NCBI RefSeq assembly: GCF_000337375.1
Contig: NZ_AOJG01000025.1
Span: 56,166-120,165, forward strand
Length of the DNA: 64,000 bases
Origin: Halorubrum lipolyticum DSM 21995
GTDB lineage: Archaea > Halobacteriota > Halobacteria > Halobacteriales > Haloferacaceae
Direction: 5' to 3'
The notes beneath the pieces were generated by a model. It saw only the letters and a program-made list of their open reading frames with translations. It was not told the DNA's origin and searched no databases. The position numbers were made by a program, and so were the translations under genes. The stretch's first letter is position 1, and each line of letters starts with the position of its first letter. Of the stretch, positions 8,869 to 46,078 are shown one piece after another.

Positions 8869-9292
8869 CGGGAGTGGGTGAAGTAGATCGGTCGATCCGT
8901 TGTTTATAACTGATCGAGCGACGTTGCTGTCGGCTATTTATAAGCGATCGACGACTCCGTAGTGAACACTTCCAAAGCCCCAGCCGCGAGGCCACAGTAC
9001 GCTCGTTGCGCTCCTCGCTCGCTCCGCTCGCTGCGGTGCTTCCGTCGTCTACTGTGGCCTCGCGGCTGCCCCTTTGAGTCCCGCCCGACCGCCCCGCACC
9101 TCACGCCTCCCCAGCCTCGTCGGTCGTCCTCCGCGTTGCTCCGGCCGACCGACTCCCTCGTGCGGGCGGTTCGCGCCCTCCGGGCGCTCACCGGCGCACG
9201 CCACCGCCGTGTTCATTTATAAGTGATCGTCGACGTCGCTCACGACTTTTAAATATCCCATCACTACCGCCAATCTGCAAGACCCGCTCTCG
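8869..9292 (-). mobile_element. MITE-like repeat element, copy 1 (424 bp)
   Basis: The unit is bounded by imperfect 23-bp terminal inverted repeats at 8869-8891 and 9270-9292 (16 of 23 positions match), beginning CGGGAGTGGGT and CGAGAGCGGGT read inward. It shares both ends and its core with the unit at 42011-42484. Inside is the conserved hairpin core described separately. No transposase frame is present, and I see no clear target-site duplication. It occupies the gap between the permease and pheT, which otherwise contains no gene. Confidence 0.65.
8972..9222 (-). ncRNA. Candidate structured RNA core, copy 1
   Basis: The long stem pairs AGCCGCGAGGCCACAGTA (8982-8999) with 9050-9067, perfectly over 18 bp. 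It is preceded by CAAAG (8973-8977) pairing with CTTTG (9072-9076) across a conserved C-rich internal loop. The second hairpin is 9119-9126/9146-9153, the third 9168-9192. On the minus strand a TTATAAAT box at 9215-9222 precedes the core. A plus-strand TATA at ~8937-8944 also exists, so the transcribed strand is uncertain. The long stem, hairpin 2 and hairpin 3 differ in sequence from the other copies but remain paired. Confidence 0.55.
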
Positions 9293-9384
9293 ATCGCGCA
9301 CAGCACTTCCGGGCGATCGTGATCGCGTCGAGGCGTCTCACCCGATCTGACGCGGGAGAGACGGGGAAAACGACCGACTCCGTC

Positions 9385-11121
9385 TCAGCGCAGCGCGTCG
9401 AGGTGGAACTCGAAGGCCGCGACGGGCACCTCGAGGTCGTGTTCGGCGAGCACGGCGGGGTGGACCTCGCCGATCACGCCGACCTCGTCGCCGTCGATCA
9501 CGACGGCGGCGGTTCGACCGTCGATGAAGGAGGGGTGCTCGGTGCGCGGGGTTTCCAACTCCGCGCCGAAGTCGTCGCACACCGCCTGCAGTCGGCCCTT
9601 CGCGGCCTCGTAGGAGGCGTCGCGCCGGGCGACCGCGCCGGCGACGTGGCGGCGCTCGGCGACGTTCGTGTTCTCCGCGTCGTCGCGCTCGGCCGCGAAG
9701 CCGACCTCCGCCACGTCCTGCGGGTACGCGTTGTGGGTGTTCCGCTCGAGCAGCATGATCAGCGAGGGGACCGCCCACGTGCGGAGCTGGGTGTACTCCT
9801 CGCTGTAGGGTTCCGTGATCGCGACGGGGTCGCCGCCGCCGAACGCGTCGCTTCCCGCGTCCAGGTTCATCCGGTCGTAGTTCTCGGTCCCGCTCGTCAT
9901 GTGGAAGTTGAGCAGGTCCTCGAAGCCGAGCCCGACGAGGCTCGTCCGGACCGCGTCCTCCAGCCGCGAGCGCTCGTGGCGGCCGCCGACCGTCCCCACG
10001 TCGGGGTAGCGCGGCTCAAGGTTGTCGAAGCCGTAGGCGCGTCCCACGTCGTCGACCAGATCGAGGGGGTGGAGCACGTCGACGCGGTACGGCGGGACCT
10101 CCACCTCGTAGGTCACGTCCCCGTCGAGGGCGTAGGAGGCGTCGAGCCCGGCGCGCTCGAAGCAGTCGACGACCTCCTCGGGCTCGAACTCGACGCCGAG
10201 CAAGGTCTCGATGCGGTCGTGGCCCACCGACTTCTCGTCGACGTCGAGGTTCGGGCGGACGAGCTCCGCGCCGTACTCGCTCGGGGCGGTCGCGCCGTCG
10301 TCGTAGTTCACCTCGACCTGCTCGATCGTCGCGCCGCGGGCCGACAGCGCGTAGCAGACGATGTTGCACATCCGGTCGATCGTCCACTGGTCGGTGCCGG
10401 TGAGCTCGACGAACAGCTCGCGGGAGCCCGTCGTCACCTCGGTCCGCTTCCCGTTGATGACCGGCGGGAACGAGAAGAGGCCGAGCTCGTCGTAGATCGC
10501 GGGATAGCGGTTCAGATCCTCGACGAGGTCGGCGTAGGTCTGCCCGGTGGCGTGCTCTTCGAGCACCTCGGTCGGTGTCAGCTCGTCGTTCGCGTCCAGC
10601 GGGACGAACGACACCCCGTCGGGGTCGACGCCGCGGTAGGTGATCGACGGCTCCGCGCCCTCCTGTAACGGCGCGCCCTTGACCATCGCGAGGTCGTGGA
10701 TTCCGATCGCGCCCTTCGCGCGGCCGCGCCCCATCGTCGCGTGGAGCTTTTCTTGTAGTTGGATCAGCGAGTCGAGCGCGCCCTCGTCGAGGTCGACGCC
10801 GCGGACCACGGCGCCGGTGACGTACGGGCGCTCGTCGGGGACCGACTCGTCGACCTCGATCGTCCACTCGGGGTCGTTCGTCTCGGGGACGTAGACGCCG
10901 CGGTCGTCGCCGTAGTGGTAGCGCAGCGAGCGCGCGACGCCCTCGACGGAGAGCCGGTCGAGCCGGTCGGGCGCGAACTCGAACTGGAGGAGGCCGTCGT
11001 CGGTCTCCCCCTCGAACTCCAAGCCGAGGCCGAACAGGTCCTCTTTGAACTCCTCGTCGCTCGTGTCGGTGCGGCCGGTGAGCCCGCGCAGCTCGTCGGT
11101 GTCGATGTCGACGACGGGCAT
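9385..11121 (-). CDS. pheT: Phenylalanine--tRNA ligase subunit beta
   Basis: A 578-residue archaeal-type PheT, which pairs with PheS in an alpha2-beta2 enzyme charging tRNA-Phe. It begins MPVVDIDTDELRGLTG, contains the B3/B4 editing-domain segment with GRGRAKGAIGIHDLA, and the B5 domain around HPLDLVDDVGRAYGFDN. The C-terminal catalytic-like domain ends AAFEFHLDAL. The start ATG at 11121 overlaps the pheS stop by one base (CATCA in plus-strand view, i.e. ATGA), indicating translational coupling. It is shorter than bacterial PheT (~800 residues), as normal for archaea. The MITE-like repeat unit lies 92 nt beyond its stop. Confidence 0.97.
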   Translation of the reverse strand: MPVVDIDTDELRGLTGRTDTSDEEFKEDLFGLGLEFEGETDDGLLQFEFAPDRLDRLSVEGVARSLRYHYGDDRGVYVPETNDPEWTIEVDESVPDERPYVTGAVVRGVDLDEGALDSLIQLQEKLHATMGRGRAKGAIGIHDLAMVKGAPLQEGAEPSITYRGVDPDGVSFVPLDANDELTPTEVLEEHATGQTYADLVEDLNRYPAIYDELGLFSFPPVINGKRTEVTTGSRELFVELTGTDQWTIDRMCNIVCYALSARGATIEQVEVNYDDGATAPSEYGAELVRPNLDVDEKSVGHDRIETLLGVEFEPEEVVDCFERAGLDASYALDGDVTYEVEVPPYRVDVLHPLDLVDDVGRAYGFDNLEPRYPDVGTVGGRHERSRLEDAVRTSLVGLGFEDLLNFHMTSGTENYDRMNLDAGSDAFGGGDPVAITEPYSEEYTQLRTWAVPSLIMLLERNTHNAYPQDVAEVGFAAERDDAENTNVAERRHVAGAVARRDASYEAAKGRLQAVCDDFGAELETPRTEHPSFIDGRTAAVVIDGDEVGVIGEVHPAVLAEHDLEVPVAAFEFHLDALR

Positions 11122-12629
11122 CAGTAGCTCACCTCCGCGTCCCGCAGGAACTCGATGTCGGCCAGCGTCCCGTGGAGGTCGCGGATGTCCTCCGCGCCCG
11201 TCGTCAGCATCGCGAGCCGTTCGAGGGCGAGCCCCCACGCCATCACGTCGCAGTCGACGCCGAGCGGGCCGGTGACCTCCTCGCGGAACACCCCCGAGTT
11301 ACCGATCTCGATCTCCTCGCCCGTCTCCGGGTGCTCGCCGAACAGCTCGAAGGAGGGCTCGGTGTACGGGTTGTAGTGGGGCTTGAACCGGATGTCGGTG
11401 ATCCCGAACTGCCGGTAGAACTCCTCGAAGGTGCCCATCAGGTCGCGCACCGAGAGGTCCTCGGCCATCACCCACCCCTCGATCTGGAAGAACTCCAGCA
11501 GGTGCGTCGGGTCGAGCGTGTCGTTGCGGTACACCTTCTCGACGGAGAAGTAGCGCTGCGGGGGCTCGAGCTCCGCGCCCGCGATCCCGGAGAGGTACCG
11601 CATCGAGAGCGACGTGGTGTGCCCTCGGAGAGCAATCTCGCGGGCGAACTCCTCGGACCACGGCGAGTGGTAGCCGTCGCCGTCCTCGCCCCACCCGTCG
11701 CGGTGGGCCGACTCGACGCGGCGAATCAGCTCTTCGGGGATGTCTTCCATCGGGTCCACGTCGAGCGCGAACCGGTCCCAGTGGGTCCGGGCCGGGTGGT
11801 CCTGCGGCATGAACAGGCAGTCGTTGATCCAGAAGTCGCTGTCGGCGTGGGGGCCTTCCATCTCCTGGAATCCCATGCCGACGAGCACGTCCTTCACGCG
11901 GTCCGCGGTGCGGCGGAGCACGTGTTTCCGGCCGCCGGAGACCGCCGGCGCGTCGGCCTCGACGTTGTACTCCGAGAACTCCACGTCGCGCCACTCGCCG
12001 CTCGCGAGCAGCTCCGGCGTGACCTGTGCGACCGTCTCCGCCGCCTCGACGCCCGTCATCAGCGCGTCGACGCCGTCGTCGGTGAGCGTCACCGATCGGG
12101 TGACCGACTCGCCGCGCTCGACGAGCCCGCGCGAGTCCAGCTGGCCGAGGACCGAGTCGTCGACCGCGGGGTCCTCTCCCGCCGCGAGCGCCGAGAGCGC
12201 GGCCGCCTCGGAGTCGGCGTCGGGATCGGCGTCGGGATCGACCGTCAGCTCGCCCGAGTCGATCGACCCGAAGCCCTTGCGCGCGAAGTTCGAGAGCGCG
12301 ATGTCGACCTCGGGGCCGTCGAGGTCGGCCTCGCCGATGACTCGTCCCATCGAGACCGCGGACTCGTCGGCACCGAGCGCGACCCCGGCGCGGTAGAGCC
12401 GCGTCTCGGGGAGCCCGTCGTCGACGTACCGCCGCCCCTCGTCGGTGACGGCGAGCGTCTCGGCGGCGGTCTCACCGACGGAGCAGAGCCCCTCGTCGCG
12501 GAGATCGAAGGCCGCGCCGGTGACCGTCTCCGGTTTCAGTCCGGTCTCCGCCGCGATCTCGTCTATCGTCCGTTCGTCCGTCGCGCTCGCGGCCTCGAGG
12601 ACCGCGAGCTGTCGTTCCGGGAGTCGCAT
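11121..12629 (-). CDS. pheS: Phenylalanine--tRNA ligase subunit alpha
   Basis: A 502-residue archaeal PheS catalytic subunit. The N-terminal ~200 residues contain winged-helix DNA/tRNA-binding repeats (RLPERQLAVLEAASATDERTIDEIA). The class II synthetase core has motif 2 around QYF-type SVEKVYRNDTLDPTHLLEFFQIEG, and motif 3 as GLALERLAML. The ATG at 12629 (MRLPERQLAVLE) matches the start of homologues; the extension to 12677 does not. It is the first gene of a pheST operon, with overlap into pheT. The upstream 290 nt hold a short Phe-rich ORF that may be a leader. Confidence 0.97.
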   Translation of the reverse strand: MRLPERQLAVLEAASATDERTIDEIAAETGLKPETVTGAAFDLRDEGLCSVGETAAETLAVTDEGRRYVDDGLPETRLYRAGVALGADESAVSMGRVIGEADLDGPEVDIALSNFARKGFGSIDSGELTVDPDADPDADSEAAALSALAAGEDPAVDDSVLGQLDSRGLVERGESVTRSVTLTDDGVDALMTGVEAAETVAQVTPELLASGEWRDVEFSEYNVEADAPAVSGGRKHVLRRTADRVKDVLVGMGFQEMEGPHADSDFWINDCLFMPQDHPARTHWDRFALDVDPMEDIPEELIRRVESAHRDGWGEDGDGYHSPWSEEFAREIALRGHTTSLSMRYLSGIAGAELEPPQRYFSVEKVYRNDTLDPTHLLEFFQIEGWVMAEDLSVRDLMGTFEEFYRQFGITDIRFKPHYNPYTEPSFELFGEHPETGEEIEIGNSGVFREEVTGPLGVDCDVMAWGLALERLAMLTTGAEDIRDLHGTLADIEFLRDAEVSY

Positions 12630-12737
12630 TCGAGTTGTCTCTATAGCCGTCTGGCTGGTTGGTAACGGTTCCGGCACGTCGCCGCCGATCCGCGCGGTTT
12701 CACCGCTCGGCCGCGGGACGGATCCGCCGCGCGCGAC

Positions 12738-12812
12738 TCACCCGAAAACGAACCCGAACGCGTCGCCGTCGATCCCGCTGGCGATGCCCGACCCGATGCG
12801 TTCGAGTGACAT
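12738..12812 (-). CDS. Possible Phe-rich leader ORF upstream of pheST
   Basis: A 24-codon ORF on the pheS strand reads MSLERIGSGIASGIDGDAFG and then four residues FVFG before TGA at 12740-12738. Three phenylalanines fall within the last six codons, ending 108 nt before the pheS start. A stem CGCGCGG/CCGCGCG can form between the ORF and pheS. This resembles the logic of bacterial pheM/pheS attenuators, but such control is not established in archaea. It may instead be a small conserved protein or chance. Confidence 0.35.
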   Translation of the reverse strand: MSLERIGSGIASGIDGDAFGFVFG

Positions 12813-12888
12813 GGTACCGAGTGGCTATCGATCGAACAGAGCCGTTTCGCTCGCCGTCAAAATTTCAGTATCGATACGCACGGGGAGG

Positions 12889-12902
12889 CATTTATATGCA
12901 CG
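12889..12902. promoter_or_regulatory. TATA-like element before the HalOD1 gene
   Basis: GCATTTATATGCAC lies 19-32 bp before the HalOD1 ATG at 12921, the usual TATA distance for haloarchaeal genes with a very short leader. It is nearly symmetric and could also serve minus-strand transcription towards pheST. Confidence 0.5.
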
Positions 12903-12920
12903 TCCGACGCCGAAACGGGT

Positions 12921-13223
12921 ATGAGCAGCGCAACGGCGGATTCGCGGGGTCACGGGCGGGTTTCGGAGCACGTCCGCGTCGAACACGGGGGCGCGGGTCC
13001 GTCACCGAGCCGGGCCGTCATCGAGGCCGTCGCCGGCGCCGCCGGCATCGACCCGATCGACCTCGGCGACGAGGCGGGGATCGTCCTCTACGATCACGTC
13101 GAGCCGGACGCGCTGGACGCGCTCGTGTCCCACGCCGGAACCGACGTCGACGTCTCGCTTTCCGTCGCCGGCTACGAGGTCAGCGTCGACGCGACGGCGG
13201 TCGTCGTCGAGCCGACCCGCTGA
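12921..13223 (+). CDS. HalOD1 output-domain protein
   Basis: A 100-residue acidic protein made almost entirely of a HalOD1 domain, a haloarchaeal output domain often found after receiver or sensor domains. Matching parts are SRAVIEAVAGAAGIDPIDL, then DHVEPDALDALVSH and the closing VSLSVAGYEVSVDATAVVVE strand pair. It stands alone, with no attached receiver domain. Function in signalling or gene control is inferred only from the family. It is transcribed from its own TATA-like element and is convergent with the M48-like gene 27 bp away. Confidence 0.85.
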   Translation: MSSATADSRGHGRVSEHVRVEHGGAGPSPSRAVIEAVAGAAGIDPIDLGDEAGIVLYDHVEPDALDALVSHAGTDVDVSLSVAGYEVSVDATAVVVEPTR

Positions 13224-13250
13224 CGGCCCAAATCGACCGATATCGGCGTC

Positions 13251-13958
13251 TCACGACGCCTCTGCCCCTTCTCGCTCCCGCAACGCCGCGATCCGATCGC
13301 CGAGCGGCGGCTGCACCTCGAACCACGTCGACCAGTCGCCGGTCGCCGGTTCGACTCCGCGGATCGCCGCCGCGCGCTCGAACGCGTCGGCGACCCGATC
13401 CGCGCCGACCGCGTCCGCGGCGCGGTCGTCGGCCGCGTACTGCACCCGCCGCCCGACCCAGAACGCCGCGAGGCCGACGGCGACGAGCGACGCGAAGCCC
13501 GCGTCGAACGGAACCGTCGCGGTGACGATCGCCGCCAACACGCCGACCACCGCGGCGATCGCGATCGCGCGGAACTCGCCGTAGTACGTCTCGACGCGAC
13601 CGGCCTCGGCCGCGAGCAGGCCGATCGCGATATCGTCGTCAAGATCGTCGAGCACGGCCTCCGAGAGGAACAGCACCCGCCGACGGGGCGGGCCGCGGAC
13701 CGCGACCTCGACGGGGCCGACGCCCTCGCGCCCGGGTTCCCCTCCGGCTTCGCCGCCGACTTCGCCCTCGCCGCGCCGCTCGATCGCGATCCGGTCCACG
13801 TCGAGTCCCGCGGTCTCGCGGAGGGAGTCGAGGCGGCCGCGCTCGGCGTCGGTCGGCTCCCGGAGGTCGCGGAATCGGTCGGCCGCGTACAGGGGGCCGA
13901 TCTCGACGGCGAGAAACGTCAGGACCGCGACGCCGGCGAGCAGGGCGGCCGTGATCAT
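13251..13958 (-). CDS. M48-like membrane protein lacking the zinc motif
   Basis: A 235-residue membrane protein with one N-terminal helix (residues ~3-25) and two helices at about residues 150-185. The layout and the stretch RRVLFLSEAVLDDLDDDIAIGLLAAEAGRVETYY match M48/HtpX peptidases. At the place where HEXXH should lie, the sequence is AAEAGRV, so both zinc-binding histidines are gone. The C-terminal part (RAADAVGADRVADAFERAAAIRGVEPATG, then HPPLGDRI-like PPLGDRIAALREREG) is still M48-like. I infer a non-proteolytic relative. It stands alone between HalOD1 and the minD-like gene. Confidence 0.75.
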   Translation of the reverse strand: MITAALLAGVAVLTFLAVEIGPLYAADRFRDLREPTDAERGRLDSLRETAGLDVDRIAIERRGEGEVGGEAGGEPGREGVGPVEVAVRGPPRRRVLFLSEAVLDDLDDDIAIGLLAAEAGRVETYYGEFRAIAIAAVVGVLAAIVTATVPFDAGFASLVAVGLAAFWVGRRVQYAADDRAADAVGADRVADAFERAAAIRGVEPATGDWSTWFEVQPPLGDRIAALREREGAEAS

Positions 13959-14033
13959 CGTCCGCGGGTCCGTCCCGGAGCGGTAAAAAGGCGCGATTTC
14001 GCGGTCAAGCGTCGAAAAGCGGGCCGCCGCCCG

Positions 14034-14684
14034 TCAACGGGGAACTCGTCGAGCGAGTTCTCGGACCGCCTTCGCTGCGGCGCTGTCGCGCGCGGCGTTC
14101 ACGACCGGTCGCTCTTCGGCGACAGAGCGGCCGACGCGCGGATCGGCGGGGACGACCGACGCGGGCGCGCCGAGCGTGTCGGCGATCGCGTCGGTCGGCG
14201 GCTCCTCGGTCACTCGGTTGACGGCGCAGCCGACGAGTCCCGCGTCGAGCTCGCGGGCGAGTTCCCGAGTCCGGATCGCGTCCGCCAGCGCGAACGCCCG
14301 CGGCGACACGACGAGCAGGCAGGCGTCCGCGACCGCGAGCGGGACCCCTGCGTCCGCCCGTCGGCCCGCGGGACAGTCGAGCACGACGGCGCCGCGCTCC
14401 CGTTCGATCGCTGCCACCGCTGATTCGAGCCGCCGGAGGTCGGCCGCCCGCGCGCCGGCGAGCGTCCGGCCGCAGGGGACGATGTCGACCGGGCCGGCGC
14501 GCAGCGTCTCGATCGGGTCGGCCTCGCCGGCGAGCACGTCGTGGAGGTCCGGACCGCGGCCGCCGGGCAGGTCCGCCATCCCGAGGTCGGCGTCGACGAC
14601 GACCGCGTCGAGCGCGGCGGCGACGTTGTACGCGAGCGTCGTCTTCCCGACGCCGCCCTTCCCGCCGGCGACCGCGAGGATCAC
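14034..14684 (-). CDS. MinD/ParA-family P-loop ATPase
   Basis: A 216-residue deviant-Walker ATPase. It begins VILAVAGGKGGVGKTTLAYN, with the signature lysines of KGGVGKT, and continues with VVVDADLGMADLP and AVVLDCPAG. The GTG start at 14684 overlaps the TGA of the upstream gene by three bases (GTGA), so the two are coupled. A frame from 14939 would run inside the upstream gene and is rejected. The C-terminus (AVRELARRVPR) may help membrane or partner association. Haloarchaea have several MinD paralogues affecting polar structures; this one's target is unknown and probably linked to the coupled partner. Confidence 0.9.
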   Translation of the reverse strand: MILAVAGGKGGVGKTTLAYNVAAALDAVVVDADLGMADLPGGRGPDLHDVLAGEADPIETLRAGPVDIVPCGRTLAGARAADLRRLESAVAAIERERGAVVLDCPAGRRADAGVPLAVADACLLVVSPRAFALADAIRTRELARELDAGLVGCAVNRVTEEPPTDAIADTLGAPASVVPADPRVGRSVAEERPVVNAARDSAAAKAVRELARRVPR

Positions 14685-15571
14685 GCGAGTCGCTCCAGCG
14701 CCTCGACCGGCGCGTCGGTCGCCTCCGCGCGCGCCGCCAGCGCCGCCGCGCGCTCGCTCAGTTCGCTGAGCCGCTTCGCGTCTGCGGCGACCCGCTCGTC
14801 GAGCCCTGAGAGCGCCGCGACGCCGTCGGCCTCCGCGACCGCCGCCGTCGCGGTCGCCAAGTCGGCGTCGGTCAGCCGCTCCGCCCGATCGATCCGTTCC
14901 TCGACCGCGTCCAGTCGCGCCCCGACCGCGTCCGACCACCCCGTCGTCTCTCCCGGCGGGGGCGCAGGGGCGTCTGGGTCGCTGGCCGGTTCATCGCTGT
15001 CGACCGCGTCAGCGCCGTTTCCGGCGGCGTGGTCCGAGCGGCTCGACCGACCTTTCGAGTCCGCCTCGCCGGCCCCAGTCGCCTCGCCGAGCCCGGTCGC
15101 CTCGCCGGCCCCAGTCGCCTCGCCGAGCCCGGTCGCCTCGCCGGCCCCAGTCGCCTCGCCGAGCCCGGTCGCCCCGCTCGCGATCGCGTCTCTCGGCGGT
15201 CGGGAGTCGCCGAGCCGCCGGAGGGCGTCAGCCGTCGCGGACGCGGGTCCGTCGGCCCTCCCACCGGGTCCAGCATCTCCCGACTGCTCCGTCGGATCGA
15301 CCGCCTCCACCTCGGCGACCTCGACCGGCGGATCGACCGGCGGGGCGCGGGTCGCGAAGCCGAGCGCCCGCCGTTCGCCGGGTCCGAGGCGCAGCGTCAC
15401 GCCCGACTCGTCCCACCCGGTCTCCGGAAGGCCGCCCCGGCGGGGCGGGAGCACGGGGCCGTCGAGCCGGCTCTCGATCCGAACGCGTCGGGGGACGGCG
15501 CCGCCGTTGCGAACGCGACACCGAACCAGCGACACGCCGCCTTCCCGGTCGACGTCCCACGAGAGGTTCAT
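14681..15571 (-). CDS. Haloarchaeal protein coupled to MinD, repeat linker
   Basis: A 296-residue protein I cannot name. The first ~95 residues form a compact beta-rich domain (MNLSWDVDREGGVSLVRCRV, then VRIESRLDGPVLPPRRGGLPE and LGPGERRALGFATRAPP). The centre is a low-complexity linker with three repeats of GLGEATGAGEAT encoded by a 36-bp DNA repeat. The C-terminal ~90 residues are predicted coiled coil (VGARLDAVEERIDRAERL through LSELSERAAALAARAEA). Its TGA overlaps the GTG of the MinD-like gene. A scaffold or MinD-partner role is inferred from the coupling and the coiled coil. Confidence 0.8.
   Translation of the reverse strand: MNLSWDVDREGGVSLVRCRVRNGGAVPRRVRIESRLDGPVLPPRRGGLPETGWDESGVTLRLGPGERRALGFATRAPPVDPPVEVAEVEAVDPTEQSGDAGPGGRADGPASATADALRRLGDSRPPRDAIASGATGLGEATGAGEATGLGEATGAGEATGLGEATGAGEADSKGRSSRSDHAAGNGADAVDSDEPASDPDAPAPPPGETTGWSDAVGARLDAVEERIDRAERLTDADLATATAAVAEADGVAALSGLDERVAADAKRLSELSERAAALAARAEATDAPVEALERLA
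15063..15170. repeat. Three perfect 36-bp tandem repeats
   Basis: The unit starting GCCTCGCCGGCCCCAGTC is present three times without change (15063-15098, 15099-15134, 15135-15170). Each unit is itself two 18-bp halves that differ at a few bases. It lies in frame within the linker of the coiled-coil gene, so copy-number change would lengthen or shorten the protein by 12 residues without a frameshift. Confidence 0.95.
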
Positions 15572-15667
15572 ACGCCGGGTGCCGCGGTATCGCTTTTAAA
15601 TTGCGGGGCGACGAGCGCGTGAGCGCGACGGGAGACCGCTTATTATCCGGGAGGGCGTCCGCCCCGT

Positions 15668-37937: not shown

Positions 37938-39551
37938 GTGACCCTTCGCCCGACCGACCGCCCGGCGGCCGCAACACCCGACACCCGCGACGGTGACCGC
38001 CGGGAGTCGGGCGATCCGCCGGCCGACGGCTCCGTTCGCGATCCGACGGTCCCGGAGGGCGAGACCGACGCCGACGAGGGGGCCGGTCCCGTCGCGTCGC
38101 CCGTCGCCGGCGCCGACCGGTTCGTCGCGGCCGTCGCGGTCGACGGCGAGGTGCTGTTCGCCGGCCCCTCGGTGCCCGCGGTGCTCGGGGTCGAGCGGGC
38201 GGCGCTCGTCGGCGAGAACCTGCTGGACCGCGTTCACCCGAACGACCGCGAGCCAGTCTCCGACGCGCTCTCCGCGGTCGCGACCGACCGCGTCGTCACC
38301 CACCGGATCCGCCGCGCGAACGGCGGGTTCGTCTGGGTCGAGTCCGTCGTCGACGAGGAGTTGGCCCCCGAGTTCGGCGGCCGCGTCGTCACCGCGCGCC
38401 GCGTCGACTCCGAGGCGACCTTCCCGGAGCGGTTCCGGGAGTTCCTCGAGTACGGCACGGACCTCGTCACCGTCGTCGACGCCGACGGCCGGGTCCGGTA
38501 CGAGAGCCCGTCGGTCGAGGAGGTGCTCGGCTACGAGCGGGGGTCGACCGTGGGGCGCTCGCCGCTCGGCTACGTCCACCCCGACGACCGCGAGCGCGTG
38601 ACCGAGCGGTTCTACCGCGCGCTCAACGACCCCGACGCGACGCCCACGATGGAGTACCGCTACCGCACCGCCGACGGCGACTGGGTCTGGTTAGAGTCGC
38701 GGACCCGGTCGCTGCCGGCCGACACCGCGGTCGGCCGCCTGCTCATCAACTCCCGTGACGTGAGCGAGCGGAAGGCGCGCGAGCGCCGGCTCACCGACCG
38801 CAACGAGCGGCTCGACCGCTTCGCCAGCATCGTCTCTCACGACCTCCGGAACCCGCTGTCCGTGATCCGGGCGTCGATGGAGATGGCGAAGCTGAAAGGC
38901 GACACCGAGCCCCTCGAGCGCGGCGAGCGCGCCGCCGACCGGATCGACCAGCTGGTCTCGGAGCTGCTGACGCTCGCCAGGCAGGGCTCCGGGATCGACG
39001 AGCCGACCGAGTTCGCGCTCGGCGGCGTCGCCCGCGAGGCGTGGGAGACCGCCGGGAGCGCGGACGCGACCCTCGTCGTCGGCGCGGACGCCCGAGTGCG
39101 CGGCGACCGCGGCCGCCTGCGACAGGTGTTCGAGAACCTGTACCGGAACGCGACGGAGCACGCCGCGTCGGACGCCGGCGCCGACAGCGGTCCGACCGGT
39201 GCCGACGCGGCGGCCCCGTCGACCGACGGCGGCGAGGACGACCCACTCACCGTCGTCGTGACCGCGACAGACGGGGGGTTCCTCGTCGCCGACGACGGAC
39301 CGGGGATCGACCCGACGCACCGCGAGGCGGTGTTCGACCCCGGCTTCACGACCCGCGAGGACGGGACGGGCTACGGGCTCGACATCGTCCGCGAGGTCGT
39401 CGAGTCGCACGGGTGGACGGTCGAGCTCCGGGGCGACGGCGCCGATCCGACGTGTCCGGACGCCGTGACGGTCCCCGACGGGGCGTGCTTCGTCGTCAGC
39501 GGCCCGGGCCCCGACGCGGCCGAGTCGGGCGCGCCGTGGATCGACGGATGA
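37938..39551 (+). CDS. PAS-domain sensor histidine kinase
   Basis: A 537-residue soluble kinase starting at GTG 37938. An acidic, low-complexity N-terminus (~50 residues) precedes two PAS domains (~55-150 and ~155-285), the second with a WVWLESR end. HisKA follows with the phosphorylated H301 in RFASIVSHDLRNPLSVIRAS, then HATPase_c with N-box NLYRNATEHA, G1 DDGPGID, and GTGYGLDIVREVV. A ~25-residue spacer in HATPase (DAGADSGPTGADAAAPSTDG) is unusually long. No response regulator is adjacent, so its partner is elsewhere. No transmembrane helix is seen, so it senses a cytoplasmic signal. Confidence 0.93.
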   Translation: MTLRPTDRPAAATPDTRDGDRRESGDPPADGSVRDPTVPEGETDADEGAGPVASPVAGADRFVAAVAVDGEVLFAGPSVPAVLGVERAALVGENLLDRVHPNDREPVSDALSAVATDRVVTHRIRRANGGFVWVESVVDEELAPEFGGRVVTARRVDSEATFPERFREFLEYGTDLVTVVDADGRVRYESPSVEEVLGYERGSTVGRSPLGYVHPDDRERVTERFYRALNDPDATPTMEYRYRTADGDWVWLESRTRSLPADTAVGRLLINSRDVSERKARERRLTDRNERLDRFASIVSHDLRNPLSVIRASMEMAKLKGDTEPLERGERAADRIDQLVSELLTLARQGSGIDEPTEFALGGVAREAWETAGSADATLVVGADARVRGDRGRLRQVFENLYRNATEHAASDAGADSGPTGADAAAPSTDGGEDDPLTVVVTATDGGFLVADDGPGIDPTHREAVFDPGFTTREDGTGYGLDIVREVVESHGWTVELRGDGADPTCPDAVTVPDGACFVVSGPGPDAAESGAPWIDG

Positions 39552-39642
39552 CCGCGGTCGCTTCGGCTCCGCCGGCGTCGCCGCGCTCCGCACCGCCGCG
39601 CCGTCCCGTCGCGTTTATTTCTCGCCGCCGCTAACCTGACCC

Positions 39643-40116
39643 GTGACCCCCGTCGACGCGACCGTGCGTCCGGTCGAGCGCGCCGACCTGCTCGCCGTGG
39701 TGCGGATCGAGCGCGCGTGCTTCTCGGATCCGTGGCCGTACGACGCCTTCGAGCGGCTGCTCGACGAGCCCGCGTTCCTCGTCGCGGAGCGCGACGGGGC
39801 GGTCGTCGGCTACGTCGTCGCGGATTCCACCCCAAACCACGGGCGCGACATCGGCCACGTGAAGGACCTCGCGGTCCACCCCGAGGCGCGCGAGCGGGGG
39901 ATCGGCCGGACGCTGCTCCGGTCCGCGCTCGCGCGGCTCCACGCGGTCGGCGTCGCCGTCGTGCGGCTCGAGGTCCGCGAGAGCAACGCGACCGCCCGCT
40001 CGCTGTACGCGGACGAGGGGTTCGACCCGATCCGCCGCATCTCGAACTACTACCGGGACGGCGAGGACGCGCTCGTGTTAGTCGTCGACCTCGCGGAGTG
40101 GACGGCGGGTGAGTGA
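39643..40116 (+). CDS. rimI: Ribosomal protein S18-alanine N-acetyltransferase-like (RimI)
   Basis: A 157-residue GNAT acetyltransferase starting at GTG 39643. The family's acetyl-CoA binding motif is HPEARERGIGRTLLRSALAR, preceded by FSDPWPYDAFERLLDEPAFL, which is characteristic of RimI/Naa10-like enzymes, and followed by RLEVRESNATARSLYADEGF. RimI-like proteins acetylate N-termini; the archaeal substrate range is broad. It precedes pepF in the same direction but is probably separately expressed. Confidence 0.88.
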   Translation: MTPVDATVRPVERADLLAVVRIERACFSDPWPYDAFERLLDEPAFLVAERDGAVVGYVVADSTPNHGRDIGHVKDLAVHPEARERGIGRTLLRSALARLHAVGVAVVRLEVRESNATARSLYADEGFDPIRRISNYYRDGEDALVLVVDLAEWTAGE

Positions 40117-40141
40117 GCCGACCACTTCTCGCGCGGACTTC

Positions 40142-40153
40142 CGCTTTTAATAA
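40142..40153 (+). promoter_or_regulatory. TATA-like element before pepF
   Basis: GCTTTTAATAAG lies about 32-43 bp before the ATG at 40185, slightly further than usual, implying a short leader. Confidence 0.45.
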
Positions 40154-40184
40154 GTCTTAGTGCCCTGGGGGCCAACCCCGCGGT

Positions 40185-41984
40185 ATGAGTTCGGTTCCCG
40201 AGCGCGCGGAGATCGACGAGGCGTACAAGTGGGACCTCCGGAGCGTCTACGCGGACGACGAGGAGTGGGAAGCCGCCTACGAGGCGGTCTCGGAGCGGAT
40301 CGAGGAGCTGGCGGCGTACGAGGGGCGCGTCGCCGACGACGCCGCGACCCTGCTCGAGCTGCTGGAGCTGCGCGAGGAGATCTTCCGCGACCTCCAGCAG
40401 GTGATGACGTACGCACAGCTCCGCAGCGCCGAGGACACCCGGAACCAGGAGTACCAGGCGATGTCCGCGAGGGCGTCCTCGCTCGGTTCCGAGGCGTCGA
40501 GCGCGATCTCTTACCTCGAGCCGGAGCTCCAGTCGCTCACCGACGAAGAGGTCGAGTCCTTCGTCGACGCCGAGCCCGCCCTCGCCGAGTACGAGCACTA
40601 CCTCGACGACGTGTTGCGGATGAAAGCGCACACGCGCTCGGCCGAGGTCGAGGAGGTGCTCGCGGACCTGTCGGAGGTCACCGACGCGCCGAGCGAGATC
40701 TACTCGATGCTGACGAACGCCGACATGACCTACGGCGTCGTCGATGACCCCGACGGCGAGGCGGTGGAGATCACGCAGTCGAACTTCACGAAGCTCCAGA
40801 CGAACCCGGACCGCGAGTTCCGCGAGCGCGTCCACGAGACGTTCTACGGCGAGTGGGCGAGCGTCCGCAACACGGTCGGCACATCCCTCGAGAAGGCCGT
40901 CCGCGAGCACGCGACGAGCGCCGAGATCCGCGGCTACGACTCCGCGCGCGAGGCCGCGCTCGACGGCTCGAACGTCCCGGTCGAGGTGTACGACACCCTC
41001 GTCGACAGCGTCGACGACAACCTCGGCGTGCTCCACCGGCACGCTGAGCTCAAGGAGGAGGCGCTCGGCGTCGACCAGCTCCAGAGTCACGACCTCTACA
41101 TGTCGCTGACGGGCGATCAGGGCCCCGACGTGGCGTACGACCAGGCCCGCGAGTGGGTGATCGAGGCGGTCGCGCCGCTGGGCGAGGCGTATCAGGAGCG
41201 GATGGCCGAGGGGCTCGACTCGCGGTGGGTCGACGCCTACGAGAACCGCGGGAAGCGCTCGGGCGCGTTCTCCTCCGGGACGTACGACACCCAGCCGTTC
41301 ATCATGATGAACTACCAGGACGACATCGCCTCGATGTTCACGCTCGCGCACGAGCTGGGCCACTCGATGCACTCGGAGCTGGCCGGCGACGCCCAGCCGT
41401 GGCACGACGCGAGCTACGAGATCTTCGTCGCGGAGATCGCCTCCACCGTCAACGAGACCCTGCTCACCCACCACCTGCTCGACACGGTCGACGACGACGA
41501 GCTTCGCACGCACGTCCTCGACGAGTACCTCGAGCGCTTCCGGTCGACCCTCTTCCGCCAGACGATGTTCGCGGCCTTCGAACAGCGGATCCACGAGCGC
41601 GTGGAGGCCGGCGACGCGCTCACCCCCGACGCCTTCGACGAGATCTACGCCGACCTCAAGGGCGACTACTACGCGCCAGCCGAGCTCACCGGCGGCATCG
41701 AGCGCGAGTGGGAGCGGATCCCGCACTTCTACTACGACTTTTACGTGTACCAGTACGCGACCGGCATCTCCGCCGCGGCCGCCATCGTCGAACGCGTCCT
41801 CGACGAGGGCGAGCCCGCCGCGGCCGACTACCGCGAGATGCTCCGAGCGGGCGGCTCGGACTACCCCCTCGACGTCGTCGAACTCGCGGGGATCGACATG
41901 GCCTCGCCCGACCCGATCGAGTCGGCCGTCGGGGTCTACGACGACTACCTCGACGAGATCGCGGCGCTGCTGGATCTGGAGTAG
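40185..41984 (+). CDS. pepF: Oligoendopeptidase F (M3B)
   Basis: A 599-residue cytoplasmic metallopeptidase of the M3B family. The zinc site is H389-ELGH-393 in TLAHELGHSMHSEL, with the third ligand glutamate in EIFVAEIASTVNE. N-terminal helical domains carry ERAEIDEAYKWDLRSVYADD and MTYAQLRSAEDTRN as in bacterial PepF. The C-terminus contains HFYYDFYVYQYATGISAA, part of the substrate-binding loop. It degrades peptides of roughly 7-17 residues. It is followed by a repeat unit and not in an evident operon. Confidence 0.95.
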   Translation: MSSVPERAEIDEAYKWDLRSVYADDEEWEAAYEAVSERIEELAAYEGRVADDAATLLELLELREEIFRDLQQVMTYAQLRSAEDTRNQEYQAMSARASSLGSEASSAISYLEPELQSLTDEEVESFVDAEPALAEYEHYLDDVLRMKAHTRSAEVEEVLADLSEVTDAPSEIYSMLTNADMTYGVVDDPDGEAVEITQSNFTKLQTNPDREFRERVHETFYGEWASVRNTVGTSLEKAVREHATSAEIRGYDSAREAALDGSNVPVEVYDTLVDSVDDNLGVLHRHAELKEEALGVDQLQSHDLYMSLTGDQGPDVAYDQAREWVIEAVAPLGEAYQERMAEGLDSRWVDAYENRGKRSGAFSSGTYDTQPFIMMNYQDDIASMFTLAHELGHSMHSELAGDAQPWHDASYEIFVAEIASTVNETLLTHHLLDTVDDDELRTHVLDEYLERFRSTLFRQTMFAAFEQRIHERVEAGDALTPDAFDEIYADLKGDYYAPAELTGGIEREWERIPHFYYDFYVYQYATGISAAAAIVERVLDEGEPAAADYREMLRAGGSDYPLDVVELAGIDMASPDPIESAVGVYDDYLDEIAALLDLE

Positions 41985-42010
41985 TCGAGAGAAAGCGGAG
42001 CGATCGATGT

Positions 42011-42484
42011 CGGGAGTGGGTATAGCAAATTTGTGAAGCAGTTATTTATAAACGATTGAGTGATGTTGCTGGCAGCTGTGTATCGGTGATCGATTCCGCG
42101 GTGAATACTTCCAAAGCCCCAGCCGGTGAGGCGGGCGCACGCTCGCTGTGCGCCTCAGTCGCTCGTTCCACTCGCTCCCTGCGGTGTCGCCGGCGGCTTC
42201 GCAGCCGGCTGCTCGTGGCGCGTAGCGCCACGCTGCTTGCGTCGCCTGCGCCCGCCTCACCGGCTGCCCCTTTGAGTCCCACCCGACCGCACAGCACCTC
42301 ACACCTCCCCAGCCTCGTCGCTGGCGGCTGTCGCCGCCAGCGACTCCCTCGTGCGGACTGCTCGCGCCCGGTGGGCGATCGCAGGCGCACGCCACCGCCG
42401 CATTCATTTCTAAGCGATCATCGCTATCACTCAGCTCCGTTTACATACGTTCTTGTCACCACCGATCTGCAATACCTACTCCCG
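42011..42484 (-). mobile_element. MITE-like repeat element, copy 2 (474 bp)
   Basis: Terminal inverted repeats lie at 42011-42033 and 42462-42484 (18 of 23 match), opening CGGGAGTGGGT and CGGGAGTAGGT read inward. GAGCGAT is also shared just outside each end, so the inverted repeat may extend beyond. The unit fills most of the pepF-TPR gap (41985-42627), which otherwise holds no gene. It contains copy 2 of the hairpin core. No transposase and no clear target duplication are seen. Confidence 0.65.
42111..42412 (-). ncRNA. Candidate structured RNA core, copy 2
   Basis: The long stem pairs 42121-42139 with 42247-42265 perfectly over 19 bp; its sequence differs from copy 1 but both arms changed together. 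Hairpin 2 is GTCGCTGGCGGC (42317-42328) with GCCGCCAGCGAC (42333-42344). Hairpin 3 pairs CGCCC (42365-42369) with GGGCG (42373-42377). The long-stem loop carries an extra hairpin CGTGGCGC/GCGCCACG near 42215-42232. The minus-strand TATA is weakened to TTAGAAAT (~42405-42412). Confidence 0.55.
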
Positions 42485-42627
42485 TAATCGCTCAGTTCGC
42501 ACCCTTCAGCGTCGGGTGTTTCACTCTCCTCCGTCTCTGAAGAAGGAGCGATCAACAGACCCGGCCACGCCCTCGCCGCGACGCTCCGACGCAACCCTTA
42601 CGCGTCGTGACCGTCAAAACCGGGTAT

Positions 42628-43530
42628 ATGACCGACGAACGCGACGACGACCGCCACGAGTTCTCCGCCGGGCAGGGCGTCGACGCCGGCTACGAGGAGT
42701 TCACCCTCGACCCCGAGGAGATCGACGCCGACCCGAACACGGTCGACCCCGTCGACTCCCGCGTCCTCACCGATATCATGGACAAGCGGAACGTCGAGAG
42801 CGACGCCGTCGACGTCGAGCGGCTGATCGACGTGGGGCTCTCGTACATGGGGATCAACCGCTTCGAGGAGGCGACCGAGACGTTCGAGCGCGCCGCCAGC
42901 TTCGCCGAGGAGGACTCCCTGGAGGCCCAGGAGGCGTGGGTGAACAAGGGCGCGGCCCACGCCGAACTGGAGGAGTACGATCAGGCGATCGGCGCCTACG
43001 AGGAGGCGCTGCGGATCGACGGCGACTCCGAGCACGCCGCGACCGCCGAGACCAACCTGGCGTACGCGCTCTGGGAGTCGGGCCGGGGCGAGCAGGCGCT
43101 CGAACACGCCGAGCGCGCCGTCGAGACCGACCCGCGCTTCGCGGAGGCGTGGTACAACCGGGGGTTCCTGCTGGTCGAGCGCGGGCTCGCCGAGGACGCC
43201 GTCACCTGCTTCGACAACGCGATCCGCCTCGGCTACCGGAGCGCGGGCGTCCTCGAAGAGAAGGCGCGCGCCCTCGAGGAGGCGGGCGAACACGAGCAGG
43301 CCGAGGAGGTCGCCGACCGCGCCGACGAGATCCGCCGCGAGGCGGAAGAGCAGATGGTCGAGGAACAGACCGGGCAGGCGCCCGGGCCGGGCGGGCAGGC
43401 CGCACAGGGCGGGCGACCCGGGGCCGGCGGGCAACCCGGCGCCGGCGGTCGCGGCGGTCGCGGCGGACGGGGCGGCGCGCGCGAGGAGCCGGAGCGAGAG
43501 CTCCAGGGTGAGGGACCCGAGGGCTTTTAA
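42628..43530 (+). CDS. Tetratricopeptide-repeat protein
   Basis: A 300-residue acidic protein with four or five TPR units (residues ~60-230), such as IDVGLSYMGINRFEEATETF, AWVNKGAAHAELEEYDQAIG and AWYNRGFLLVERGLAEDAVT. A coiled-coil segment (QAEEVADRADEIRREAEEQM) and a Gly/Ala/Pro/Gln-rich tail of about 55 residues follow. The ATG at 42628 is chosen, after TATA-like sequence; an in-frame GTG at 42607 is less likely. Its TAA is immediately followed by the DUF424 start, so they are coupled. TPRs mediate protein contacts; the partner is unknown. Confidence 0.9.
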   Translation: MTDERDDDRHEFSAGQGVDAGYEEFTLDPEEIDADPNTVDPVDSRVLTDIMDKRNVESDAVDVERLIDVGLSYMGINRFEEATETFERAASFAEEDSLEAQEAWVNKGAAHAELEEYDQAIGAYEEALRIDGDSEHAATAETNLAYALWESGRGEQALEHAERAVETDPRFAEAWYNRGFLLVERGLAEDAVTCFDNAIRLGYRSAGVLEEKARALEEAGEHEQAEEVADRADEIRREAEEQMVEEQTGQAPGPGGQAAQGGRPGAGGQPGAGGRGGRGGRGGAREEPERELQGEGPEGF

Positions 43531-43830
43531 ATGCTCCTCCGCGAGCGCGAGACCGCCGAGGGACGGCTCGTCTCCGTCTGCGACGCCGACTGCCTCGGCG
43601 AGACGTACGACAACGGGCGCGCGACGATCACCGTCAGCGAGGAGTTCTACGGCGGCGACGACGCCGTCGAGGCGACCGCCGAGGAGGTCGTTGCGGGGCT
43701 CCACCGCGCGCAGGTCGCGAACATCGTCGGCACCGAGGCCGTCGGCGTCGCCGTCGAGGCCGGGCTCGTCGACGAGGAGACCGTCCTGGAGTTCGAGGAG
43801 ACCCGACACGCACAACTGCTCTGGCTGTGA
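43531..43830 (+). CDS. DUF424 family protein
   Basis: A 99-residue archaeal protein of the DUF424 family, conserved widely but uncharacterised. Matching features are VSVCDADCLGETYDNGRATI, then a short variable loop, AEEVVAGLHRAQVANIVGTE and AVGVAVEAGLVDEETVLEFE. The start ATG follows the TPR gene's TAA with no gap. Structural relatives suggest RNA binding in translation, but this is not shown for this protein. Confidence 0.88.
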   Translation: MLLRERETAEGRLVSVCDADCLGETYDNGRATITVSEEFYGGDDAVEATAEEVVAGLHRAQVANIVGTEAVGVAVEAGLVDEETVLEFEETRHAQLLWL

Positions 43831-43848
43831 CCGATCGGCGATGACACG

Positions 43849-44160
43849 ATGAAGCGACTGACGAGAGCCGAGTTGGCAGAACGAGTGGGGCCGCGACCGC
43901 CGTCGGACGCGTTCTGGAGCCGTGTGATCGCGGCCGAACGAGGGACGATCAGCGTCGGCCCCGAGGTCGTCGGCGACACCGACCGGCGGGCGCGAGAGAA
44001 CCGGCGGCGGCGCGGCGAGTCCGGCGACGACGGCCTCCTGTCGCCGGGCGACATGATCGACGTCGGCGAGGCGTCGTTCGTCGTCGTCGCCGTCGACGAG
44101 ACCCGAGCCGGCGGCCGACGGTATCGGATCGAGCTGGTCGAGCCGCGACGGGGCGATTGA
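43849..44160 (+). CDS. Small haloarchaeal conserved protein
   Basis: A 103-residue basic-acidic protein, not recognised beyond being haloarchaeal in style. The N-terminus MKRLTRAELAERVGPRPPSD is helical. The C-terminal half (LLSPGDMIDVGEASFVVVAV, GGRRYRIELVEP) resembles a small beta barrel. It starts 18 bp after DUF424 and probably shares its mRNA. Confidence 0.7.
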   Translation: MKRLTRAELAERVGPRPPSDAFWSRVIAAERGTISVGPEVVGDTDRRARENRRRRGESGDDGLLSPGDMIDVGEASFVVVAVDETRAGGRRYRIELVEPRRGD

Positions 44161-44221
44161 AAAGGGCGTCGTCGCCGCCCGCCCCAGAGCGAACCGACGA
44201 CCCCAGAGCGAACCGCCCGCG

Positions 44222-45343
44222 CTACAGGTCCGCGACGTCCTCGATGGCGTCGGTGAGTTCCTTCACGCTCTCGACGGTGTGTTCGCCCATGTGACCGATG
44301 CGGAACGTCTCCTCGCCGAGCTGCGAGCCGTAGCCGTTCGAGAAGGCCATGTCGTACTCCTCGCTGACTTCCTCGATCGTCGCGGCGACGTCGATCCCCT
44401 GCGTGTTCTCGATGCAGGCGACCGTCTGGGACTCGTAGCCCTCCTCGGGGAACATCGCGAAGTGCTCGTCCGCCCAGTCGTGGACGTATTCCATCATCTC
44501 GCGGTGGCGCTCGTCGCGGGCGCGGTGGCCCTCCTCGAGCATGTGTTTCATCTGCTTGCGGTACGCCAACATGATCGGGATGGCGGGCGTCGAGTGGGTC
44601 TGGCCCTTCCGGTCGTAGTAGTCGATGGTGCGCCGGAAGCCGCCGTACCACGAGGAGTCGCCCTTCTCGACCTCGCGGTCGTAGGCGTCCTGACTGACGA
44701 CGCAGACCGCGAGCCCCGGCGGCATCGCGAACGCCTTCTGCGTGGACGCGAAGATCACGTCGATGCCGTGGCCGTCGATGTCGACGTAGTCGCCGCCGAG
44801 CGCGGAGACGGCGTCGACGACGAAGTAGGTGTCCGGGTACTCACTGATCACGTCGCCGATCTCCTCGATCGGGTTGCGGACGCCGGTCGACGACTCGTTC
44901 ATCACGGTCGCGACCACGTCGTAGTGCTTGTCCGTCGATTCGAGGTGCTCGCGGATGTCCCCGGGCTTGACCGCCTCGCCCCACTCGTACTCCAGCCGGT
45001 CCACGTCTTTCCCGAGCCGCTCGGCGACGTTGGCGTGGCGCTCGCTGAAGCTCCCGCAGGTCGGCACTAAGATGTTCTCGTCGACGAGGTTCAGCGTCGA
45101 CGCCTCCCAGAACTCGGTGCCGGACGCGGTGAGGACGACCACGTCGTTGTCGGTACCGAGGAACGTCTTCGTGTCCTCGACGATGGTGGTGTACAGGTCG
45201 GTCATCCGGTCCATCCGGTGGCCGAACGTCGACTCCGTCATCGCCTCGATGACGTCGTCGCGGACCTCGGTCGGACCGGGGATGTACAGCGTCTTGTCGT
45301 CGTAGTCGTCGCGGTATTCGCGTTTTGTCGTCACGGGATCCAC
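44222..45343 (-). CDS. Class V PLP aminotransferase (serine-pyruvate/alanine-glyoxylate type)
   Basis: A 373-residue pyridoxal-phosphate enzyme. YIPGPTEVRDDVIEAM and FGHRMDRM are typical of the SgaA/AGXT-like group. The PLP pocket includes VVLTASGTEFWEAS and VDAVSALGG, and the Schiff-base lysine is in ASTQKAFAMPPG. The C-terminus has SNGYGSQLGEETFRIGHMGE. Likely substrates are alanine, serine or aspartate with glyoxylate or pyruvate; a role in serine or phosphonate metabolism is possible. The gene is isolated, converging on the DUF424 cluster. Confidence 0.9.
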   Translation of the reverse strand: MDPVTTKREYRDDYDDKTLYIPGPTEVRDDVIEAMTESTFGHRMDRMTDLYTTIVEDTKTFLGTDNDVVVLTASGTEFWEASTLNLVDENILVPTCGSFSERHANVAERLGKDVDRLEYEWGEAVKPGDIREHLESTDKHYDVVATVMNESSTGVRNPIEEIGDVISEYPDTYFVVDAVSALGGDYVDIDGHGIDVIFASTQKAFAMPPGLAVCVVSQDAYDREVEKGDSSWYGGFRRTIDYYDRKGQTHSTPAIPIMLAYRKQMKHMLEEGHRARDERHREMMEYVHDWADEHFAMFPEEGYESQTVACIENTQGIDVAATIEEVSEEYDMAFSNGYGSQLGEETFRIGHMGEHTVESVKELTDAIEDVADL

Positions 45344-45428
45344 CTGATGGATCGTATCGCGTCGTGCGGGGGTATGTTCCTTGTGATACGCCGCAAAAGG
45401 GGACCGGCGTTCGGGTGTCGAACCCGTC

Positions 45429-45686
45429 CTATTTCCAGTGCCAGAAGTCGTTGCCGTCCTCTTCGACGGGGTCGGTGCGCTCGCGGAGGGCGGCGACGTC
45501 GTCGGCGGTGGGCTCGTGGTCGTCCGGGAGCCGCTCCATGCAGTCGAAACAGAGGAAGAACTCGGAGTCGTCGGTGAGCTCCAGGGTCATGCCCTGCGTC
45601 GACTCGAACGCGAAGTTCCACAGATCGCCGATCCCGCCGGCGATCCTGACGGACCGCTCGCAGACGTCACACGACTCCGTGGCCAT
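45429..45686 (-). CDS. Small zinc-binding haloarchaeal protein
   Basis: An 85-residue protein with CDVC near the N-terminus (residues 6-9) and CFDC (residues 46-49), consistent with one zinc site. GIGDLWNFAFESTQGMTLEL and TADDVAALRERTDPVEEDGN lie between and after. It ends DFWHWK. The family is not characterised. It is probably transcribed from a TATA in the third repeat copy's left end (TTTATAAA, ~45782-45790). Confidence 0.78.
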   Translation of the reverse strand: MATESCDVCERSVRIAGGIGDLWNFAFESTQGMTLELTDDSEFFLCFDCMERLPDDHEPTADDVAALRERTDPVEEDGNDFWHWK

Positions 45687-45819
45687 ACGTGGGGTAGCGA
45701 CTCCGAGCGGTAATGCGTGTCGACGAAGACGTGATCGCTAGCGAATCGGCGGTGAATGGTATCGGAACACCCGGTTGCTCGTTTATAAACAGGTGGCTGT
45801 GGATCGACGGTGATCACCT

Positions 45820-46078
45820 CCAAAGCCCCAGCCGCGAGGACTCGCGCGCCTTGCTGCGCTCCTCAGTCGCTCGTTGCACTCGCTCCTTGCGGTGCTTGCT
45901 ACGGCGTGCTTCGCCCTCGCGGCTGCCCCTTTGAGTCCCACCCACCGCAGCCTCACACCTCCCCAGCCTCGTCAGTCGCCCTCCGCGTTGCTCCGGGCGA
46001 CTGACTCCCTCGCACCGGCGGTTCGCGGCCCTCCGGGCCGCTCACCGGGGCGCGCCAACCGCATTTCTATTTATAAAC
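45820..46078 (-). ncRNA. Candidate structured RNA core, copy 3
   Basis: The same boxes as copies 1 and 2 are present. The outer long stem is AGCCGCGAGG (45830-45839) with CCTCGCGGCT (45915-45924), 10 bp. Hairpin 2 pairs GTCAGTCGCCC (45971-45981) with GGGCGACTGAC (45995-46005); hairpin 3 pairs GCGGCCC (46025-46031) with GGGCCGC (46035-46041). A perfect TATTTATAAA box at 46069-46078 reads as TATA on the minus strand, 10 bp after the ABC ATPase stop. No TIRs are seen here, so the core exists apart from the mobile-looking unit. It fills most of the 45687-46087 gap. Confidence 0.55.

Follow-up and report, generated by a model that had tools for sequence, protein, structure and literature searches.

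The REP/BIME repeats, together with their RAYT transposases, are short imperfect intergenic palindromes of which one strand is recognised as single-stranded DNA (ssDNA). Pneumococcal BOX elements and Correia/NEMIS-type repeats are bacterial, modular, and dispersed, and have variable stems. The palindrome-associated transposable elements (PATEs) of Haloquadratum walsbyi lack a transposase, occur in 177 and 194 copies in two strains, and carry palindromes related to IS605-type transposons (PMC3119063). The repeat described here occurs three times (8972..9222, 42111..42413, and 45820..46078) in a window of 64,000 nucleotides, the whole stretch analysed, from Halorubrum lipolyticum DSM 21995 (G000:C25:56166-120165; draft genome of 3.43 Mb, 41 contigs, 99.4% complete). 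It is dispersed, intergenic, and present or absent from site to site; its hairpins covary, show a wobble bias towards the minus strand, retain mismatched loops, and mix as cassettes. We read these blocks as a non-autonomous dispersed mobile repeat whose folded single minus strand would be recognised in trans, a proposal to which we assign about an even chance.

Read 5' to 3' on the minus strand, the element starts with a TTTATAA-like box, GCGGTGGCG, hairpin 3, GYGCGAGGGA, and hairpin 2. It continues with the G-rich GAGGCTGGGGAGGYGTGAGG, a TGCGG-rich linker of variable length, GGGYGGGACTSAAAGGGGC, hairpin P1, and GGGGCTTTS. Hairpin P1 combines an outer SAAAG/CTTTS helix, a GGG/GGG loop, and a long stem. 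Its tip is conserved, as AAGCACYGCA and GAGGAGCGCAGC are both present, with one mismatch allowed in each, in 121 of 226 copies that had been selected on their boxes rather than on pairing. Within GAGGCTGGGGAGGYGTGAGG, CGAGGCTGGGGAGG is invariant in 46/46 rows of alignment A1. Two flank types occur. Type 1 consists of the inverted ends AGCGGGAGTGGGTAT, with 16 two-ended copies in the loci examined (up to 3 mismatches), and type 2 of tandem units on the P1 side, between one and three in number and mostly 57 bp long; no terminal inverted ends were seen in type 2 copies.

The comparison with PATEs reveals both shared and divergent traits. Both are haloarchaeal and transposase-free, reach many copies, contain palindromes, and suffer core deletions by recombination (PMC3119063). 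Small elements insert into PATE palindromes (PMC3119063), and the present repeat similarly has nested extra hairpins. Its cores, about 250-500 bp long, are likewise too short to encode a transposase. PATEs have no terminal inverted repeats; here type 1 copies have them, and none was seen in type 2 copies. Unlike the PATEs, the repeat comprises three ordered hairpins and conserved G-rich boxes and is found order-wide, and its boxes occur at 0/8 TnpB and 0/20 Y1 loci. Palindromes between genes recall REP/BIME, although the present repeat is longer and its genome has no Y1 match despite roughly 95 copies. A modular dispersed architecture with variable stems also resembles BOX and Correia/NEMIS, a likeness of description. 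The inverted ends of type 1 copies recall miniature inverted-repeat transposable elements (MITEs), from which the repeat differs in that type 2 copies lack such ends and neither a parent transposon nor a target duplication was found.

The first-pass annotation had reported the same ordered elements at the three positions in the window, with stems that differ between copies yet stay paired, and direct reading and a script bore this out for all three. The CAAAGCCCCAGCCG box lies at 8973, 42112, and 45821, the GCCCCTTTGAGTCCC[AG]CCC box at 9068, 42266, and 45925, the CCTCCCCAGCCTC box at 9106, 42304, and 45958, and the TTTATAA-like box at 9216, 42407 (as TTTCTAA), and 46070. Hairpin 2 is exactly complementary despite its changed letters (GTCGGTCG../..CGACCGAC in copy 1, GTCGCTGGCGGC../..GCCGCCAGCGAC in copy 2, and GTCAGTCGCCC../..GGGCGACTGAC in copy 3). 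A scan of the window with covariance model R1 recovered the copies at E 7.5e-23, 1.1e-21, and 2.7e-21, with no fourth match below E 0.16. Because the 46 sequences behind R1 include all three window copies (two under the handles L001 and L004, the other under its own name), these E-values are not independent and only the missing fourth match is informative.

The family extends far beyond the window. The 14-base box GCCCCTTTGAGTCC has 99 matches in the genome (51 + 48, at most one mismatch; 79 exact) against 0 for the reversed pattern, and hence does not arise by chance. A few matches probably reflect sequence duplicated in the assembly near single Ns, and one (L104) resembles coding sequence; discounting these leaves roughly 95 places. 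Several draft contigs end inside copies (C4:10, C8:76, C10:40, C12:190, and C18:22), and some copies (L005, L013, L015, L020, and L105) enclose a lone N bordered by duplicated sequence, which indicates that the repeats break the assembly and that some duplicates are probably artefacts. A 19-base form of the box occurs in 49/52 genus genomes, with 0-164 matches each.

An initial survey found the exact 14-mer in 34/35 same-genus genomes and 0/24 others. The 14-mer was too strict for the latter, as CTGAAAG mostly replaces CTCAAAG there and the partner has changed to match. With one mismatch, GGGYGGGACTSAAAGGGGC is found in 270/392 genomes and 70/95 genera of the order, with up to 186 matches (G065); the order-wide reversed-pattern control gave 2 matches in the table. 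Building a covariance model from the copies and searching haloarchaeal genomes, as the first-pass annotation had proposed, recovered further members of the family. R1 matched 117/392 genomes at E <= 1e-3 and, at 1e-4, 12/12 genomes picked for strong matches. The matches outside the genus were doubted as composition artefacts, an explanation rejected once 25 of them had been read: box B is present in 23 and box A in 17, and the GGGGCTTTS partner lies downstream in all 17 box A-bearing matches (one mismatch allowed). Incomplete or doubtful members of this group are L319, L323, L324, L326, L333, L334, L336, and L337. A viral or plasmid origin was considered and rejected: no phage record was found, and the sole viral contig (L376) has box A inside apparent coding sequence. 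Relatives of the repeat are carried on 13 haloarchaeal plasmid records.

The copies had been taken for three loci of one structured molecule. They belong instead to a repeat family scattered through the genome, and a given site may be occupied in one species and vacant in another. Rfam 15 returned only tRNAs and no covariance-model match to the repeat. No description of it was found in the open-access literature, covered by titles and abstract starts (subscription journals, preprints, and ISFinder lay outside this scope), and its novelty is not proven. Other reports consulted concern archaeal G-quadruplexes (PMC12873603, PMC7565180) and halite small RNAs (PMC7002113).

Covariation in the stems is strong. 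Column pairs of the 226-copy set were scored by mutual information with average product correction (APC). Of 630 column pairs, the six with the highest values all belong to the predicted structure (z up to 10.6), and the top 20 include 12 such pairs; the best pair reaches 0.69 against a background maximum of 0.44. The covariation persists in this larger alignment. In alignment A1, the three highest-scoring of 9045 column pairs are structure pairs, and so are 8 of the highest 30. Pairing there amounts to 95.2% against 84.7% when shuffled, and the covariation score to 0.338 against 0.160 (0/500 shuffles), with the structure in both cases predicted from the same alignment. The outer four bases of P1 illustrate the exchange of pairs: among 269 listed, 197 read CAAA/TTTG, 35 GAAA/TTTC, 5 CGAA/TTCG, and 1 TAAA/TTTA; the remaining ends are not fully paired, some through a wrong partner taken by the script. 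The three-base helix of hairpin 3 (n=104) appears as GGT/ACC (22), TCC/GGA (22), TGC/GCA (20), TGT/ACA (7), GAC/GTC (5), and others, counts that lean to pairing since the parser demanded two of three pairs. Selection on structure, as originally claimed, is supported by the strong covariation in the 226 copies, with two corrections: compensation is partly whole-hairpin replacement, and the folded strand is likely the minus strand.

Compensating changes of this kind could also come from mutation alone, through template switching on imperfect palindromes and gene conversion, with no selection on structure. We consider this improbable. Whole-hairpin replacement and a few perfect-palindrome versions of hairpin 3 would suit it, as would two copies with changes expected from template switching at palindromes: in L011 the interior of a hairpin is inverted, and in L197 box 1 has become a full palindrome. 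However, such a process should erase internal mismatches. TC/TC (GA/GA on the minus strand) is kept in 104/119 parsed distinct hairpin 3 sequences, although 17/136 did not parse and the parser gave TC/TC a bonus. The GGG/GGG mismatch persists inside the P1 stem, and GGGG is kept on both P1 sides in other genera in 17/17 copies with box A, the boxes having served as search key. Mutation alone would also predict no wobble bias towards one strand, and such a bias is seen.

A G.U pair on one strand corresponds to A.C on the other, and strand-symmetric mutation predicts equal counts. On the minus strand, G.U:A.C is 123:42 in P1 (36:4 in this genome, 65:25 in other Halorubrum, and 22:13 in other genera) and 14:1 in the hairpin 3 triplet. 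Hairpin 2 gives 21:4 over distinct sequences, counted in one register in which 68/195 segments are unpaired and contribute nothing. A further count of 109:11 from A1 was left unused, as its structure had been predicted on the minus strand. Because each of the three hairpins shows this excess of G.U on the minus strand, that strand is probably the one that folds, opposite to the one written in the first-pass annotation.

A mobile origin is favoured by how copies come and go. The corresponding place in Halorubrum halophilum (L109) lacks copy 2 and the stretch around it (41988..42570), leaving an empty site, and Halorubrum persicum (L110) lacks copy 3 (45723..46078), which is present in four others (L109, L111, L112, and L117). 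One window gene has Halorubrum spp. as its closest named relatives, with the top locus in H. halophilum at 97% protein identity. The gap before the gene at 42628 contains opposite-orientation copies with all three boxes in L113, L114, and L150 (Haloparvum) and opposite-orientation material with box 1 only in L112, L115, and L116, which suggests separate insertions or an inversion. About eight of ten extra box-1 places read have lost large parts, as judged by eye. Species differ in the stems and hairpin cassettes that they carry at the 45.8 kb site, mostly with pairing intact; in L109, P1 is broken. Within this genome, one hairpin 2 sequence occurs in five copies, each with different neighbours; P1 types combine independently of hairpin 2 (p 0.56) and almost independently of hairpin 3 (p 0.08), and a weak association exists between hairpins 2 and 3 (p 0.03). 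Recombination between copies is therefore part of the story, and some compensating changes are cassette swaps. Empty sites, the range of 0-164 matches per genome, deleted derivatives, and mixed cassettes together point to a non-autonomous mobile repeat.

Under the proposed mechanism, a protein supplied in trans would recognise the folded single minus strand and copy the element into new intergenic gaps. Only foldable copies would spread, and selection on one strand would thereby keep the repeat folded. Recombination between copies would swap whole hairpins and keep the family alike. We lean towards ssDNA rather than RNA as the recognised form because of the spacing of the TATA-like box and the absence of a gene-orientation bias, both of which bear on a second explanation.

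The minus strand may instead be transcribed, with the folded RNA as the functional form, either as a dispersed family of trans-acting non-coding RNAs or as a cis element of mRNA 3' ends. We regard this as rather unlikely. Tandem GA/GA mismatches are stable, and, along with the minus-strand wobble, they suit RNA. Copy 3 folds at -131.6 kcal/mol on the minus strand against -109.2 on the plus strand. In 81/133 Halorubrum copies, the 50 nt that precede the folded strand contain a TTTATAA-like box, against 4/133 in the shuffled control. Nevertheless, in 60 of these 81 only 6-9 nt separate the box from the structure. Transcription starts about 26 nt downstream of a TATA box, so the covarying outer stem of hairpin 3 would be lost, and the box was rejected as a promoter of the folded strand on account of this spacing. 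The 50 nt upstream hold such a box in only 1/25 copies from other genera. Nor do Halorubrum copies show an orientation bias relative to flanking genes (++ 23, -- 24), and the strand z-scores given below do not favour the minus strand.

Placement relative to genes bears on yet another explanation, in which the repeats serve the host in place by insulating or terminating convergent genes or by organising the chromosome. Among 89 copies of this genome with both neighbours within 600 bp (home-made gene caller; 91/95 copies had both neighbours), convergent genes flank 47, tandem genes 32 (17 in one orientation, 15 in the other), and divergent genes 10. The wider Halorubrum set, in folded-strand coordinates (n=116), gives ++ 23, +- 54, -- 24, and -+ 15; other genera (n=45), where borders were less reliably found, give ++ 18, +- 9, -- 10, and -+ 8. 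A host function would account for the raw count of 54/116 copies between convergent genes and for shared sites that persist across many species. It is weakened by zero matches in 3/52 genus genomes and by the 32/89 copies between tandem genes without strand preference, and tolerated insertion fits equally. We hold a host role of this kind to be quite unlikely.

Several results weigh against a mobile repeat recognised through its folded minus strand. The P1 wobble ratio drops to 60:37 over distinct sequence contexts, the earlier excess was carried by positions 3 and 11, and copies share ancestry, so that wobble counts are not independent events. Copy 3 folds better than shuffles on both strands (z -3.55 minus, -3.97 plus), and folding energy hence does not decide the strand. 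A host function would likewise explain why the repeat is conserved over 70 genera and maintained at old shared sites. A target-site duplication was not established at the two empty sites read, whose borders were too diverged to call. The Y1 transposase (PF01797) had no match in this genome or in the copy-rich G018, and is missing from 11/52 genus genomes. Boxes, sought within about 3.2-3.4 kb, were present neither at any of the 20 genus Y1 loci fetched (of about a hundred matches) nor at this genome's 8 TnpB loci. A link to IS605/RAYT was accordingly not found and was set aside. As for other mobilisers, an outer end resembling GGCTCTGTTGA, which we take to be an IS6-type end, occurs in 4/36 distinct type-1 ends against 0.75 expected from shuffles (6/43 before repeats were removed). 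The GGCTCTGTTGA-like end is missing from both IS240-type loci, and these ends weakly suggest an IS6-like mobiliser.

The G-tracts around P1 allow a further, more speculative proposal. The folded minus strand might build a G-quadruplex into mid-P1, in which the GGG/GGG loop would be completed by the preceding GGGYGGGACT; we find this doubtful. It is just as doubtful that the putative quadruplex would be held in place by the long stem on one side and the covarying outer helix (SAAAG/CTTTS) on the other, as a duplex-quadruplex-duplex knob. The haloarchaeal cytoplasm contains molar potassium chloride, which would favour G-quadruplex formation. If true, the knob would be a new kind of nucleic-acid element, present in dozens to over a hundred places per genome across an archaeal order, and a mark for a mobilising or organising protein. 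If the mobile interpretation is true, most haloarchaea carry a large and old family of folded repeats missing from Rfam, which breaks draft assemblies and exchanges hairpin cassettes from locus to locus. Its conserved G-tracts would suit it to the study of G-quadruplexes in a potassium-rich cell. Each genome would then supply about a hundred natural variants with which to look for an archaeal protein that recognises the shape of nucleic acids, and the repeat would provide a direct test of what spreads repeats without their own transposase.

The three window copies display the architecture in detail, with cores and hairpins assigned to the minus strand, taken as the folded one. The core of copy 1 runs from box 1 to the right TTTATAA (8972..9222; R1 match 9068-9207). 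It comprises hairpin P1 (8973..9076) with outer CAAAG/CTTTG, a CCC/CCC internal loop (minus GGG/GGG), and a long stem, box A (9068..9086; minus GGGYGGGACTCAAAGGGGC), box B (9106..9118; minus GAGGCTGGGGAGG), hairpin 2 (9119..9153), and hairpin 3 (9160..9200) with the TC/TC internal loop. A script placed its left type 1 inverted end, AGCGGGAGTGGGT, at 8867..8879 on the plus strand. Copy 2 (core 42111..42413; R1 match 42266-42398) spans 42009..42484 when counted between its two type 1 inverted ends. Its P1 (42112..42274) has extra small hairpins nested inside and is accompanied by box A (42266..42284), box B (42304..42316), hairpin 2 (42317..42344), and hairpin 3 (42351..42390), one of those with a broken TC/TC side. 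Copy 3 (core 45820..46078; R1 match 45925-46061) contains P1 (45821..45933), box A (45925..45943), box B (45958..45970), hairpin 2 (45971..46005), and hairpin 3 (46012..46054). The first pass could not see that copies 1 and 2 are followed outwards by inverted ends resembling AGCGGGAGTGGGT, nor that a decayed upstream unit adjoins copy 3.

Further observations concern the flanks and nested parts. Many copies (e.g., L038, L078, and L143 13230-13617) have, to the left of P1, tandem units of 48-65 bp with TTATAA and box 1. Their spacing is 57 bp in 47/70 cases and a multiple of three in 65/70. A protein-coding origin was nonetheless rejected, as each of the six frames of the unit is interrupted by stops in some copies (the best frame in 61/271 units) and box-to-box distances are not multiples of three. 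Beside box 1 in the tandem units (e.g., L013) lies the ten-base palindrome GGTGAACACC, moderately conserved at 49-79% per base over 271 units, which may be a binding site of a dimeric protein. Small GC-rich hairpins are nested in or beside P1 and hairpins 2 and 3 like movable units (L009, L014, L102, and window 42189-42233), and some type-1 flanks have longer, decayed inverted ends (e.g., L022, L054, L212, and window 42540-42567).

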